Part shown: piece after piece, positions 3,609 through 24,339 of the stretch
How positions within the stretch are numbered: the stretch's first letter is position 1
Layout: the number at the start of each line of letters is the position of its first letter
Source: Candidatus Tharpella sp.
GTDB taxonomy: Bacteria > Desulfobacterota > Anaeroferrophillalia > Anaeroferrophillales > Tharpellaceae
Direction: 5' to 3'
Assembly: GCA_021161425.1 (NCBI GenBank)
Contig: JAGHAQ010000116.1
Location: 1 to 36,815, forward strand
Length of the DNA stretch: 36,815 nucleotides
The notes under the pieces: generated by a model
The model's database searches: none
Told to the model about the DNA's origin: nothing
The model's input: only the letters and a program-made list of their open reading frames with translations
Position numbers and translations under genes: made by a program

Positions 3609-5021
3609 ATGACTGGACCCGTCAACCCGATTCGCAACCAATTTATTGAAGAGCTGAAACAATCTGGTTTTACTGATAAACAGATTGTGGTCGCTGATGA
3701 ATCACGGGCCTGTTACGGCTATGATGCAACCCGTCAAAGCGCCGACCCGATGCTGGTACTGCTGCCCGAAAATGGCCTCCAGGTCGAAACCGCCCTGCAA
3801 CTGGCTGCAAAAAGAAAGCTTAAAATCTTCCCCCGTGGTGCCGCCAGCGGCATGTCGGGCGGTTCCATCCCGAGCAGCGACGGCATCATCCTCTCTCTGA
3901 CCCGAATGAAACAAATTCTCGAAATCGACCAGGAAAATATGATCGCTACGGTTGAACCGGGAGTCATAACCGGTGAACTCCAGGAGGAAGTCGGCCGCCT
4001 GGGCCTCTTCTACCCACCCGACCCCGCCAGCCTTGCCTTTTCGACTATCGGCGGCAATGTCGCTGAGAATGCCGGCGGCCCGCGGGCCGTCAAGTATGGA
4101 GTTACTGCCGATTATGTCATGGGCCTGGAAGCGGTTCTTGTCAATGGTGAAACGATCAGAAGCGGCAACAAATGTGTCAAATCAGTCTCCGGTTATGACC
4201 TCACTTCACTGCTGGTCGGCTCGGAAGGAACCCTGGCAGTTATCACTAAAATCCTTTTGAAACTGTTACCAGCACCCGAAACTGTCAAGACCAGTCTCCT
4301 GGCTTTCCCCTCAATGACAGCTGCCGCCCACGCCATCAACGCCATGTTTAAGAACCAGATCGAACCCTCAACGATTGAATTTTTAGATCACCACTCAATC
4401 AACGCAGTACGTGACGGATTGCCTTTCTCTCTGCCCGAAGAAGCGGATACGGTACTCCTGGTTGAAATCGATGGCACGGCCACCGGTGTTCTCTCCCAGA
4501 GTCAAAAACTTAAAGAACTTTTCAAAGATGATGCACTGCTCTTAATAGAGGCCCAAAATGAAAGTGAAAGGGAGCAGCTTTGGATCGCCCGGCGCCGTCT
4601 TTCACCGGCCATTGCCAACCTTGCCCCCCACAAGATCAATGAAGATATCGCGGTACCCCGATCCGCAATTCCTGAAGTTATCGCCCGCCTCGAAAACTTG
4701 TCGGAAAAGATCGCCCTGCCGATCGTTTGTTTCGGTCATGCCGGTGACGGCAACATTCATGTTAATGTCATGCTCGACAAAGATGATCCGGATCAAGCCC
4801 GGCGAGGTCACCAGGCTATTGATGAAATCTTTGCCGTCACCCTTGAACTGGGCGGCACCCTTTCAGGTGAACACGGTATCGGCAACACAAAATCAGCATA
4901 TCTCGACAAAGAGTGGAACCCGGCCACCATTGCCACCATGCGAGCCATAAAACGAGCTTTCGACCCCGACAATCGACTCAACCCCGGCAAAATTTTTCAA
5001 CAACTAGAAAGATACCTATGA
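3609..5021 (+). CDS. glcD: FAD-binding 2-hydroxyacid (glycolate/D-lactate) oxidase subunit GlcD
   Basis: Flavoprotein subunit that oxidises a 2-hydroxyacid and passes electrons to the FeS subunit GlcF encoded two genes on. 470 residues, typical for GlcD. Visible: the FAD pyrophosphate loop PRGAASGMSGG, the PCMH-type region with FSTIGGNVAENAGGPRAVKYG, and the C-terminal oxidase motifs CFGHAGDGNIHVNV and SGEHGIGNTK. It follows the NFACT gene by six bases with no good Shine-Dalgarno. Its TGA overlaps the ATG of the receiver gene (ATGA), so the two are probably translationally coupled. Glycolate and D-lactate enzymes of this family cannot be separated by eye; lactate is the commoner substrate in anaerobic relatives, which is an inference from lineage. 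Confidence 0.88.
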   Translation: MTGPVNPIRNQFIEELKQSGFTDKQIVVADESRACYGYDATRQSADPMLVLLPENGLQVETALQLAAKRKLKIFPRGAASGMSGGSIPSSDGIILSLTRMKQILEIDQENMIATVEPGVITGELQEEVGRLGLFYPPDPASLAFSTIGGNVAENAGGPRAVKYGVTADYVMGLEAVLVNGETIRSGNKCVKSVSGYDLTSLLVGSEGTLAVITKILLKLLPAPETVKTSLLAFPSMTAAAHAINAMFKNQIEPSTIEFLDHHSINAVRDGLPFSLPEEADTVLLVEIDGTATGVLSQSQKLKELFKDDALLLIEAQNESEREQLWIARRRLSPAIANLAPHKINEDIAVPRSAIPEVIARLENLSEKIALPIVCFGHAGDGNIHVNVMLDKDDPDQARRGHQAIDEIFAVTLELGGTLSGEHGIGNTKSAYLDKEWNPATIATMRAIKRAFDPDNRLNPGKIFQQLERYL

Positions 5022-17302: not shown

Positions 17303-17400
17303 TGGCGGAAGTGTATGGGAATCGAACCCACCTTTCCGGTTATCAGCCGAAAACACTGGATTTGAAGTCCAGGCTGCCCACCAGTGACAGAGACACTTCC
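17303..17400 (-). tRNA. selC: tRNA-Sec (anticodon UCA)
   Basis: 98-base selenocysteine tRNA, read on the minus strand. The eight-base acceptor stem GGAAGTGT pairs perfectly with ACACTTCC, followed by discriminator G and an encoded CCA (17305-17303). The anticodon arm is CTGGA-CTTCAAA-TCCAG with UCA at 17365-17363. A long variable arm (about 17332-17355) and the T arm TGGG-TTCGATT-CCCA complete the structure. The eight-base acceptor, long variable arm and UCA anticodon together are diagnostic. The genome therefore should decode UGA as selenocysteine at selected sites. Confidence 0.97.
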
Positions 17401-21186: not shown

Positions 21187-22047
21187 TCAACCGCTACCAA
21201 CCCCTGCTATATCACAGGTTTTTTCCATCTCTGTCTGGAAAAGAAGGACCAATTTTTCCAGATCTTTCTCCTCAAGCTTCATTTTTTTCAATAACAGATC
21301 ATGTCCACGGCAGGCCAGACCGTCAACCCCGGTACCATAACCAACCATCACCACAAGGTTGTTGGCCAGAGCCACCAACTCAGCTAATAGACGAAACTCT
21401 TTAGGGGAACGAAAAGGTTCATGGTGAAAGGCAATGGCAGCTATAATTGCCGGAGGGAAATCCCATTTTTCGGCTATTTTACCACCAATCTCAGCATGAT
21501 CAAAGCCAAGTATCTCTTTTTCAGCCTCTTGGAAAGAGCGTTTACCGTTCTCCACCAGATTCTCTATAACACGATACTTATCACTGACAAAGGCACTTAA
21601 CACAACCTTGCCGACATCGTGTAGCAAAGCCGCAGTAAAGATCATATTTTCATCAATTTCAAGTCGTAAATGGCGACGTATAACCTGAGCCATAACCGCA
21701 GTTGCCAGAGCATGACGCCAGAGTTCATCAGCAAATACGGCATACCCTTCATTGGGTTTTTCATAGATTTTACTAGCGGCTCCAGAGAGAAGCAGCTGTC
21801 GCAGCTGGGTAGCCCCAAGATAAACAACTGCCTCTTTCAGGGAGGAAACCTTACGCGGCAAGCCAAAATAGGCCGAGTTGCAAAGCTTGAGAATATTTGC
21901 GGTAACCGCCTGATCAACCTTTAAAATATCCACCAGCCCCGAGACTTCGTATTCCGGTTCCGCCAGTACCTGCATGGCCCGCTGCACGACTTGGGGAAAG
22001 GGAGGCATCTCATCGACTGCGGCAATGATCTCTTCCATCAAACTCAT
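21187..22047 (-). CDS. HDOD-domain signalling protein
   Basis: 286-residue protein made largely of one HDOD domain, a metal-phosphohydrolase-like fold used for signalling output. Visible: MPPFPQVVQRAMQVL, DQAVTANILKLCNSAYFG, SSLKEAVVYLGATQLRQL, and the HD-like core LLHDVGKVVLSAF with FDHAEIGGKIAEKW. Family members usually lack confirmed catalysis. The ATG overlaps the cheD stop (ATGA), so it is coupled to cheD and forms the intact 3' end of the ruined chemotaxis operon. Confidence 0.88.
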   Translation of the reverse strand: MSLMEEIIAAVDEMPPFPQVVQRAMQVLAEPEYEVSGLVDILKVDQAVTANILKLCNSAYFGLPRKVSSLKEAVVYLGATQLRQLLLSGAASKIYEKPNEGYAVFADELWRHALATAVMAQVIRRHLRLEIDENMIFTAALLHDVGKVVLSAFVSDKYRVIENLVENGKRSFQEAEKEILGFDHAEIGGKIAEKWDFPPAIIAAIAFHHEPFRSPKEFRLLAELVALANNLVVMVGYGTGVDGLACRGHDLLLKKMKLEEKDLEKLVLLFQTEMEKTCDIAGVGSG

Positions 22048-22526
22048 AACTCAACCATCCCTTTCTTGGAAATTTTCAGGTTTATCCTGCCATCGTCAAT
22101 CTGCATGTACATGGTCCGGTTACAATTGCCGCCGATGTCTTCACCGTCAACCATAACATTATTCTTCCAGAATATTTTACGCAAAATTGCGTAATTGCGT
22201 TTACCGATATTAAAGGTGCTGGCGGCATCCATAATCTGGCTGCCACCGGCAACTTTGATAATCATCCGTTTTTTGTCCGCTCCAAGCTTATAGCACTGCT
22301 TAAACAACAAAGGTATGCCCTTATTGGCGAACATCGCTGGATTTTTTTCCGCCTTTTCCTGATTTATTGATGAATCCGGTAGCATATAGTGTAACATTCC
22401 GCCAATTTTGGCCTCCGGATCATAAACAGCAAGGCCAATACATGAACCAAGAGAGTAGGTGACCAGAGTATCTTCGGGATTATTGCTGACCTTAAAATCA
22501 GCTATTCCGACCGTAACCAGAGACAT
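22044..22526 (-). CDS. cheD: Chemoreceptor glutamine deamidase CheD
   Basis: CheD deamidates glutamines in methyl-accepting chemotaxis proteins and can work with CheC-type phosphatases. 160 residues, normal length. Catalytic C29 in the YSLGSCIGL motif and H46 in MLHYMLPDS are both present, as is FANKGIPLL and the C-terminal MVDGEDIGGNCNRTMYMQ. Its ATG overlaps the last base of the cheR remnant stop (TGATG). It is fully intact although every chemotaxis gene upstream is broken. Its transcription now depends on whatever reads through that remnant. Confidence 0.92.
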   Translation of the reverse strand: MSLVTVGIADFKVSNNPEDTLVTYSLGSCIGLAVYDPEAKIGGMLHYMLPDSSINQEKAEKNPAMFANKGIPLLFKQCYKLGADKKRMIIKVAGGSQIMDAASTFNIGKRNYAILRKIFWKNNVMVDGEDIGGNCNRTMYMQIDDGRINLKISKKGMVEL

Positions 22527-22764
22527 CAGCTCTTTTCCCTGTAGAGTGAAGGTTGAACATAGACGAGGTCGTGCTTGACATTGGTCAGGCTTTCCGAATG
22601 ACCAATCATGAGATAGCCTCCGGGATTGAGAAAGGAGCTAAATTTATTGACCAGCTGCCCCTGGGTTTGACGGTCAAAATAGATCATGACATTACGACAT
22701 ATTCCCCATAATTTTCAAGCCCAAGAGAACGCAAACGTTTGGCTAACTTTGAATGAACCCGGTC
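22526..22764 (-). pseudogene. cheR: cheR remnant: N-terminal piece joined to C-terminal piece
   Basis: Two parts of a CheR methyltransferase meet at base 22699. The 3' part (22529-22699) reads [20 protein letters not shown], continues through [12 protein letters not shown] and ends at the natural stop: the last 57 residues of CheR. The 5' part (22699-22764) reads [18 protein letters not shown], the N-terminal helical domain. About 150-170 residues between them, including the SAM-binding core, are missing and the frame shifts at the junction. The piece cannot make an active methyltransferase. Confidence 0.85.
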
Positions 22765-22878
22765 AGCGGAACAGACCCGATCGATATCAAGAAGGATGAC
22801 CACCACATTTTCGAACTTCCCCAAACCCTTAATACAATCACGACTGACCGTCGATGAGAATACCGAAGTTTTTTCAAT
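22762..22878 (-). pseudogene. C-terminal fragment of a second cheW
   Basis: Reads VFSSTVSRDCIKGLGKFEN then VVVILLDIDRVCSAD, the usual end of a CheW scaffold protein. Its N-terminal three-quarters are gone: upstream it is joined in another frame to the end of the cheA remnant, and downstream it runs in frame straight into the cheR N-terminal fragment. It differs from the cheW piece at 23707-24006, which covers the other end of the protein, so either two cheW genes existed or one was split. Confidence 0.7.
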
Positions 22879-23340
22879 GGGCGCAAGGATTCAACCACGT
22901 TGAGGATCGGAATAATATACCACCATACCGTCAATAATCGCCAATGTCAACGGCACTTTAATGGACACTACCGAGCCTTGCCCCGGGGTTGAATCAACCT
23001 CGACCACACCGCGCAGTTTTTCGATCGCCTTTTTTACCACATCCATACCAAAACCATATCGACCAGATTGTCGAGTTTCTCAGTATCCACCTTGATTGCA
23101 GAACCACCGCCAACCTCTTTTTTCTGTTGTTGTTGGCGGATCGCCCGAGCTACGGTTTTAACATCGGTCTTTTTCTGCTAAGAAAAGGGTTCACCGGCAT
23201 TACTTCAAGCGCCCCACCACCAAGTGCGATATCGAGATGTTCATTAGATTCGGCAATGAAGCCCTGATAAAGATCCTGATCCTGACTAAAGTCAACCCCG
23301 GAGAATAGTTCATCGCTTGAATCCTGAGATTGAGTTAGAA
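22879..23340 (-). pseudogene. cheA: cheA remnant with several internal deletions
   Basis: Pieces of the chemotaxis kinase appear in the right order: Hpt-domain start (DFSQDQDLYQGFIAESNEHL, about 23220-23300), a linker RAIRQQQQKKEVGGG, the dimerisation start AIKVDTEKLDNLVDMV (about 23054-23103), then directly FGMDVVKKAIEKLRG and IKVPLTLAIIDGMV (end of the kinase domain), and a frame-shifted IPILNVVESLRP (CheW-like regulatory domain). Missing are most of the Hpt domain including the histidine, nearly all of the dimerisation and ATP-binding domains, and much of the end. Intact CheA is about 650-750 residues; roughly 150 remain. Confidence 0.85.
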
Positions 23341-23580
23341 AGCAGATCAAGTGACTTTTCCAGCTCTTTAAATTCATCATAAATGATCGTAACAATGGCA
23401 TCCCGAAACTGTACAACACGGGGCAAAAGATATTCGAACATCTCTTCCGCTGATAGATGCTGGTACAATCTGGATTGAAATAGCGTATCTCAGTAGATTT
23501 GTCCAGCAAATGAATACTTGGAATGGTAAAATCACCGACCTTCGCACCATCGCCAAAGCAAGCTCAGAATCCATCAACAT
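23341..23580 (-). pseudogene. Unidentified broken coding sequence, possibly the 5' part of the cheA remnant
   Basis: GGGAGA precedes ATG at 23580, giving a believable gene start (MLMDSELALAMVRR). The frame then shifts; a second frame reads GDFTIPSIHLLDKSTEIRYF and a third AEEMFEYLLPRVVQFRDAI then YDEFKELEKSLDLL. The switches between frames with protein-like text in each suggest at least two small deletions. I do not recognise the family. Confidence 0.4.
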
Positions 23581-23600
23581 TCTCCCTCTAAGCGTTAGCC

Positions 23601-23717
23601 TTAAGTTTTATACCGATTTTCATCCAAGATCTTACGAACCAGGTGATCGCTACTCAAAAACTTGATGTAAAACTCTTTAATGTCCAAAACCGACCAGGGT
23701 TTGGGTTTAATCGTCGT
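23601..23717 (-). pseudogene. Unidentified 3' gene fragment after truncated cheW
   Basis: An open stretch ending in TAA at 23601 reads IKPKPWSVLDIKEFYIKFLS then SSDHLVRKILDENRYKT. It begins in a different frame inside the end of the truncated cheW and has no start of its own. It resembles the C-terminal tail of a receiver-type protein (KPW followed by helices), but this is weak. Confidence 0.35.
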
Positions 23718-24006
23718 TTTCACTTTCGATAACGATGATACAGGTTCGTTCGCTGGGTTCAACTTGTTCGAGATTAAACTTGCAGCGCAGGTCGATAATC
23801 GGGATCACCTTGCCGCGTAGATTGATGACCCCTTTGACATAGTCCGGGGTTTGCGGCAGAACCGTAACCGACATCATGCCGATAATCTCTTTGATCTTCA
23901 TGATACTGATGCCATACTCTTCACCGACCAGGGCAAAAGTCATAAACTTATGCGGACCGCCACTGCCAAAATTATTTTGCACAGTTGCCTGATAGTTCGT
24001 AAAAGT
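23707..24006 (-). pseudogene. cheW: cheW, truncated at the C-terminus and fused upstream to a cheY stub
   Basis: About 90 residues of a CheW scaffold protein: FMTFALVGEEYGISIMKIKE, VTVLPQTPDYVKGVINLRG, KVIPIIDLRCKFNL, then it stops at SENDD. Normal CheW is about 150-170 residues, so the second half is lost. Upstream the frame stays open only to the TGA at 24007-24009, directly after the cheY stub, and there is no good start codon (a GTG at 23982 is the only candidate). A short protein might still be made, but it would lack half the receptor/CheA-binding fold. Confidence 0.8.
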
Positions 24007-24051
24007 TCAGGGAACAAAAGAGGCCTCATCGATGATCATAATCCGGGCCAT
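24007..24051 (-). pseudogene. cheY stub, first 14 codons
   Basis: ATG at 24051 opens MARIMIIDEASFVP and then TGA. This matches the first strand and acidic pocket of CheY-type receivers (usually IIDDASF). The rest of the receiver, about 105 residues including the phosphoacceptor, is missing, and the same frame resumes after the stop inside cheW. It marks the original 5' end of the operon. Confidence 0.65.
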
Positions 24052-24101
24052 ATCTTTCAGGAGATATCACTATAAAGAACAATTGCCAAAGGATATAAGA
24101 G

Positions 24102-24131
24102 AGGATAGTAAAGAGTGAAATAGTTTGACAA
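24102..24131 (-). promoter_or_regulatory. Possible promoter of the decayed chemotaxis operon
   Basis: Minus-strand TTGTCA (24131-24126) and TATCCT (24107-24102) with an 18-base spacer, about 50 bases before the cheY stub. Both boxes are 4-5 of 6 matches. If active it would drive the remnant RNA and the intact cheD and HDOD genes behind it. Confidence 0.4.
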
Positions 24132-24223
24132 TTTTGCCGATAAAAAAAGATCCACCAGATTGAGAAATCATTAGAATTTATAGAAAGAGATGGAACATCA
24201 ACTAACCCAAGCGCACTTTCAGG

Positions 24224-24253
24224 TTGACATGTTTTACCTCGATTGACTATAGT
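24224..24253 (+). promoter_or_regulatory. Sigma70-type promoter for the def-fmt-mfd unit
   Basis: Perfect -35 TTGACA (24224-24229) and -10 TATAGT (24248-24253), spacer 18. Transcription would start near 24260, about 80 bases before the def ATG. The 288-base gap between the cheY stub and def holds this and the opposite promoter; nothing else is supported there. Confidence 0.7.
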
Positions 24254-24339
24254 CTTTGCCCTTCATCCTTATATTAAAGTCTTTTTTACCGATACATCAT
24301 CTTTCAACCTCAAGATTCTATTGCCTACAATTACCAACA

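Follow-up and report, generated by a model that had tools for sequence, protein, structure and literature searches.

According to Mira et al. (2001), cited by Kuo and Ochman (2010; PMC2916853), non-functional bacterial genes are removed mainly by deletion and at a rate above the neutral expectation. For Salmonella, Kuo and Ochman report that a loss of over 20% of the length is seen in few curated pseudogenes and that entire genes mostly disappear through large deletions (PMC2916853). In the part of the work on maize gene fractionation drawn on here (PMC2893956), a short-deletion mechanism removes functionless genes, and illegitimate recombination is discussed. Bacterial gene-loss intermediates are rarely caught, as genes are usually found intact, lightly broken, or gone. 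Here, we describe a locus in an uncultured sea-floor bacterium, a relative of Candidatus Tharpella (genus described in PMC9213671; family Candidatus Tharpellaceae), where a chemotaxis cluster is represented by ordered scraps.

The window, 36,815 nt in length, is the whole of contig C114 of the source genome, a MAG labeled G000 (1.60 Mb, 123 contigs, 63% complete). The comparison genomes are G001-G016, with contigs given as Gxxx_Cyy. Using three-frame translation, blastn, and blastp against contigs of the same genus, we detected che scraps over 1608 bp of the minus strand (24134-22527), all in one orientation and in operon order, and intact same-genus che clusters, including that of the sister genome G006, matched this interval piece by piece and colinearly. 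The locus is best read as a ~14-kb chemotaxis cluster that has genuinely and recently collapsed through deletions, a reading to which we give a probability of roughly 0.8.

The ancestral order was NtrC-type regulator, hybrid histidine kinase 1 (HK1), MCP, cheW1, hybrid histidine kinase 2 (HK2), cheA, cheW2, cheR, cheD, and HDOD. G011_C26 carries NtrC-type regulator-HK1-MCP-cheW1 on one contig, and G004_C124 carries MCP-cheW1-HK2-cheA-cheW2-cheR followed by cheD. Bridging the two on their common MCP-cheW1 gave an ancestral length of ~13.8 kb, on the assumption, supported by the order of the scraps, that the ancestor of G000 had the two overlapping halves in one continuous cluster. The locus has thus shrunk from ~13.8 kb to 1.6 kb, with ~88% gone; the original prediction had allowed about 5 kb for the intact genes. 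The core cheA-cheW2-cheR-cheD-HDOD of G006 and G011 adjoins def on one contig with no MCP part between, so G000, with its MCP-bearing layout, follows the G004 type.

Blast placement on the intact operons of relatives bore out the predicted run of minus-strand che pieces in operon order and corrected two of its labels. The first scrap (24004-24134; this and all following pieces on the minus strand) contains the start of an NtrC-type response regulator gene, ~14 codons preceded by their upstream region, and matches G001_C27 186-317 at 77% (E=1e-20), where the regulator ORF encodes 463 aa, is sigma-54-dependent, and has receiver, AAA, and Sigma54_activat domains. The part at about 24051-24004 had been taken for 14 codons of cheY, a label that we rejected because the fragment aligns with this regulator. 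The last ~10 codons of HK1 (880 aa) follow at 23983-24014 (87.5% to G001_C27 4291-4322), and nothing recognizable is left in G000 of the MCP that stood between HK1 and cheW1. The first ~100 codons of cheW1, correctly predicted as the first half of a cheW gene, lie at 23690-23992 (86% DNA identity to G001_C14, E=6e-94; 80% to G004_C124), with the blastn match spanning 23979-23690. What had been an unidentified fragment at 23687-23600 proved to be the last 28 codons of HK2 (68% aa identity to the end of the G008_C98 ORF and 57% to G001_C148), which in relatives is a 662-675-aa PAS hybrid kinase with the architecture PAS-HisKA-HATPase-REC. An intergenic piece from just upstream of cheA is located at 23466-23526 (82-88% to G001, G006, and G008).

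Six pieces of cheA remain, and blastn and blastp against relatives upheld the predicted Hpt, dimerization-start, kinase-end, and regulatory-start fragments. Piece 1, from the Hpt region, lies at 23326-23438 (80% to G001_C176 and G007); piece 2, at 23230-23333 (86.5% to G001_C176 3637-3740), begins at the 10-nt repeat TCAATCTCAG common to both sides of the deletion; and piece 3 is found at 23181-23242 (79% to G006_C61 4727-4666). Piece 4, the start of the dimerization domain, occupies 23053-23179 (81-87% to G006 and G001), piece 5, the end of the kinase domain, 22919-23056 (87% to G008; 94-96% aa identity), and piece 6, the start of the CheW-like regulatory domain, 22872-22919, placed by blast to relatives after a 20-nt deletion; the stretch 23051-22872 matched with E=1e-57. 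The last scraps are the 3′ part of cheW2 (22756-22878; 80% to G001_C103, E=5e-25) and two pieces of cheR, one of ~20 codons from the 5′ end (22699-22759; 84-85% to G001, G006, and G008) and one of ~57 codons from the 3′ end (22526-22699; 90-93.5% DNA identity to G001, G006, G007, and G008), the match to the latter running over 22699-22500 (93.5%, E=4e-83). The end of a second cheW gene and both ends of cheR were thus also as predicted, and the CheW and CheR Pfam models both scored above their cut-offs at the locus.

The locus does not read as a functional flagellar chemotaxis operon, since a full-length CheA (Hpt, dimerization, kinase, and CheW-like) is absent and its six pieces lie in different frames. 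The scraps are homologous to genes that are intact at the same locus in relatives, and their frames are destroyed by sized deletions and by an in-frame stop codon in cheW1 (TAA at about 23709-23707). A remnant kept for function, for example as a short CheW1 half-protein or as a regulatory leader for cheD, might be suspected from the 91-codon open frame that persists in cheW1 and from the intact cheD-HDOD pair directly downstream. However, only about half of the CheW domain is left in cheW1 (90.5 bits against the Pfam model, with the one TAA), most deletions shift the frame, and G010 and G012 keep cheD-HDOD without a recognizable remnant, making retention for function highly improbable.

At least 13 junctions (J1-J13) were resolved, more than the approximately nine first counted, and at most of them the flanking reference sequences meet sharply; the placement of J4, between the HK2 end and the cheA upstream region, is less exact. 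Downstream of HK2, the deletions that could be sized within one reference genome measured 154, 148, 220, 583, 20, 703, 156, and 499 nt, seven of the eight not being multiples of three. The deletions between the cheA upstream region and cheR span 20-703 nt, and ~4 kb is missing inside regulator-HK1. Microhomology at seven scored junctions was 10, 1, 4, 1, 4, 3, and 1 nt (sum, 24; J7 in cheA left out), compared with a null mean of 1.0 each from joints simulated in G006 and measured alike (p about 5e-5); each value, like the null, is the best over several relatives. The 10-nt case is TCAATCTCAG, found on both sides in G001. The same collapsed junctions were sought in other genomes of the genus, and none was found.

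These junctions bear on an assembly artefact, the main alternative named in the original prediction, which had in mind reads joined across repeats. In another form of it, low coverage would have broken the che operon into short contigs, which read pairs then put in order while the gaps were dropped. The MAG is 63% complete in 123 contigs, the length of several pieces is close to that of a short read, and no N occurs in any G000 stretch examined, which gives no view of how gaps were handled. De Bruijn assembly joins require at least about 20 nt of exact overlap. The overlaps at the junctions, 0-10 nt, are too short for such k-mer joins, and microhomology above chance is unlike the outcome of dropped gaps, although these could still give ordered pieces; above chance but at most 10 nt, it fits illegitimate deletion. 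In addition, colinearity with G006 holds along the remainder of the contig, which contains no similar collapse, cheY-cheX-cheB and MCPs are also missing, in other places and on other contigs, and cheW1 carries a stop codon. An assembly artefact is therefore weakened as an explanation and now seems unlikely.

We then consider how a real collapse could have proceeded. In simulations of random sequential deletions of exponential size that reduced 14.2 kb to 1.7 kb, a mean of 200-300 nt required about 43-64 events and left 11-16 visible junctions, while a mean of at least 600 nt left about five or fewer, with 13 junctions in 1.7 kb arising in no run. Stepwise deletion is thus possible but needs many events in little time. 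The failure of the larger deletions in the simulation, together with the many junctions and hardly any substitution, speaks for one burst, in which the template jumped forward again and again during a single accident of repair or replication, and most of the cluster went at once with order and orientation kept. Conversely, sequential deletion with a mean of 200-300 nt reproduces the junction number, inversions, duplications, and foreign inserts were not observed, and MCPs elsewhere were lost separately, so that we regard a single accident as decidedly unlikely. Nevertheless, 13 surviving junctions in 1.6 kb would call for about 45-65 random deletions with a mean of 200-300 nt, a large number given the little substitution, so a burst or faster-than-neutral removal may have been involved. 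It is a doubtful but conceivable extension that many closely spaced forward deletions occurred in a short time, through a burst or a deletion-prone repair system of the lineage, with loss running far ahead of substitution and leaving ordered scraps of ~100 nt.

The timing of the collapse was addressed through the codon positions of the surviving pieces. Over 1037 aligned coding sites, the G000 pieces differed from G001 at 25, 17, and 101 sites in codon positions 1, 2, and 3, respectively, compared with 28, 20, and 104 between G001 and G007, both of which are intact. The share of differences at positions 1 and 2 was 0.29-0.33 for G000 versus G001, G006, and G007, and 0.32-0.33 among those relatives; versus the more distant G011 and G004, it was 0.36 and 0.39. 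An excess at codon positions 1 and 2, as expected of relaxed constraint, was thus absent from the G000 pieces in the comparisons with G006, G001, and G007, and this missing signal is read, from sequence comparison, as recent loss rather than retained function. Since the codon-position pattern is that of intact relatives, most of the divergence would predate the loss and have accumulated under selection. From the binomial spread of the shares, we infer that substitution since the loss amounts to at most about 2-4%, these being loose bounds; the 22 changes unique to G000 are too weak alone as an age bound. The original prediction had offered recency as an inference, which the codon-position test now supports, and the same test together with the alignment to intact same-genus operons substantiates its view that the operon was lost by serial internal deletion and not by slow substitution.

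Beside the collapse, cheD is the first intact survivor (22044-22526, minus strand; Pfam CheD, 2.8e-29), with 91-95% aa identity to G001, G004, G006, G007, G008, and G011, and the codon-position pattern of its differences shows it to be under purifying selection. It is followed by an intact HDOD-domain gene (21187-22047, minus strand; Pfam HDOD, 3.7e-58). The genes cheY-cheX-cheB, which lie 3′ of HDOD in relatives, are missing from the window, and a SPOR-domain gene is found there instead. Wherever a lineage lost the che operon but kept the locus (G000, G010, G012, and G013), both cheD and HDOD are intact, hinting at a role outside the operon. On the other side, a 53-nt block between def and the che remnant (24215-24267, minus strand) is 87-94% identical in G004, G006, G007, G008, and G011 and has a shorter match in G002, G003, G005, G009, G010, and G012. 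This block, upstream of def, is conserved above its surroundings. Because relatives that lack the che operon also retain it, it is probably part of def or of its leader. An Rfam search in and near the che locus, the block included, returned no RNA match. Elsewhere in the window, a tRNA-Sec gene lies at 17307-17400 on the minus strand (Rfam tRNA-Sec, 69.7 bits), and a dispersed repeat of ~140 nt at 1901-2040 recurs dozens of times in related genomes, in G001 often at the ends of contigs.

Losses in the same pathway were also observed elsewhere in the genome, beside open flagellar genes. G000 has one MCP, compared with 8-13 in the flagellated genomes of the family; G008 (68% complete) and G009 (61%), of similar completeness, have 10 and 11. 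Given ten ancestral MCPs and 63% sampling, the probability of finding one or none is about 0.0008. At 2250-2380 of contig C65, the flanks are kept and the 722-aa MCP of the sister G006 is replaced by 130 nt with no convincing MCP remnant; this MCP was lost in G000, because G004 has an MCP in the same place. On contig C40, G000 lacks 3.25 kb that in G006 includes an MCP and has 78 nt in its place, a difference whose direction is not polarized. The flagellar genes compared on contig C77 are all open (motA/motB-like, fliL, fliM, fliN, fliO, fliP, fliQ, fliR, flhB, flhA, flhF, fleN, and fliA, together with a stand-alone cheY), their names resting on position and similarity to relatives rather than on a family search for each, and two flagellin-type genes are open on contig C110. 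The 63%-complete genome yielded no further intact copy of this cheA or cheR; the sole other CheA/CheW/CheR set is a divergent, intact one on contig C5 (CheA of 1084 aa, CheW, CheB, and CheR), which we guess to serve a non-flagellar function.

Across the family, a tree of cheD and HDOD grouped G000 with the intact G006 and required the operon to have changed between presence and absence at least three times (G000; G010 and G012; G013). Because G016 and G014 keep the operon, these changes were likely losses. For the core operon, primary absence from the losing lineages was rejected, since it stands beside cheD-HDOD in G016 (same taxonomic order) and G014 (same family). No recognizable che remnant was found in the def-cheD intervals of G010 and G012 or in the region upstream of cheD in G013. 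In G014 (contig C22; another genus of the family), cheA and cheW2 are full length but apparently frameshifted, which may represent early decay, an earlier stage of the same loss, or sequencing error. A loss of motility is suggested for four family members, G002, G003, G005, and G015: nothing in them matches this cheD, no flhA scores above the cut-off, and none has more than one MCP. One family thus spans intact operons, the apparently frameshifted G014, the collapsed G000, and G010, G012, and G013 with nothing recognizable, and therefore the size spectrum and endpoints of the deletions can be measured directly. The suggested order of loss is that chemotaxis goes while flagellar genes stay, with cheD-HDOD outliving the operon in each losing lineage.

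On the preferred reading of a recent, deletion-driven collapse, the dependence of the cells on flagellar chemotaxis would have ended first. Deletions would then have piled up one by one through slippage or end-joining between short repeats, and the cluster would have been removed by many separate illegitimate deletions of tens to thousands of bases whose endpoints share little or no microhomology, while cheD-HDOD would have been retained through a role outside the che operon.

The kind of process is already known and the locus is not a new kind of genetic system; its state of preservation is unusual. The intact che clusters of G001, G004, G006, G007, and G011 have the same genes, order, and neighbors (def, cheD, and HDOD), with full-length ORFs where G000 has fragments. 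Compared with maize fractionation as presented in the part of that work considered here (PMC2893956), the likeness lies in removal by short deletions, whereas G000 is a bacterium, has no duplicated second copy, and shows deletions of up to kilobases. The erosion of Salmonella pseudogenes (PMC2916853) is likewise deletional, but in G000 many internal deletions have taken away ~88% of the cluster and left scraps whose order is still legible.
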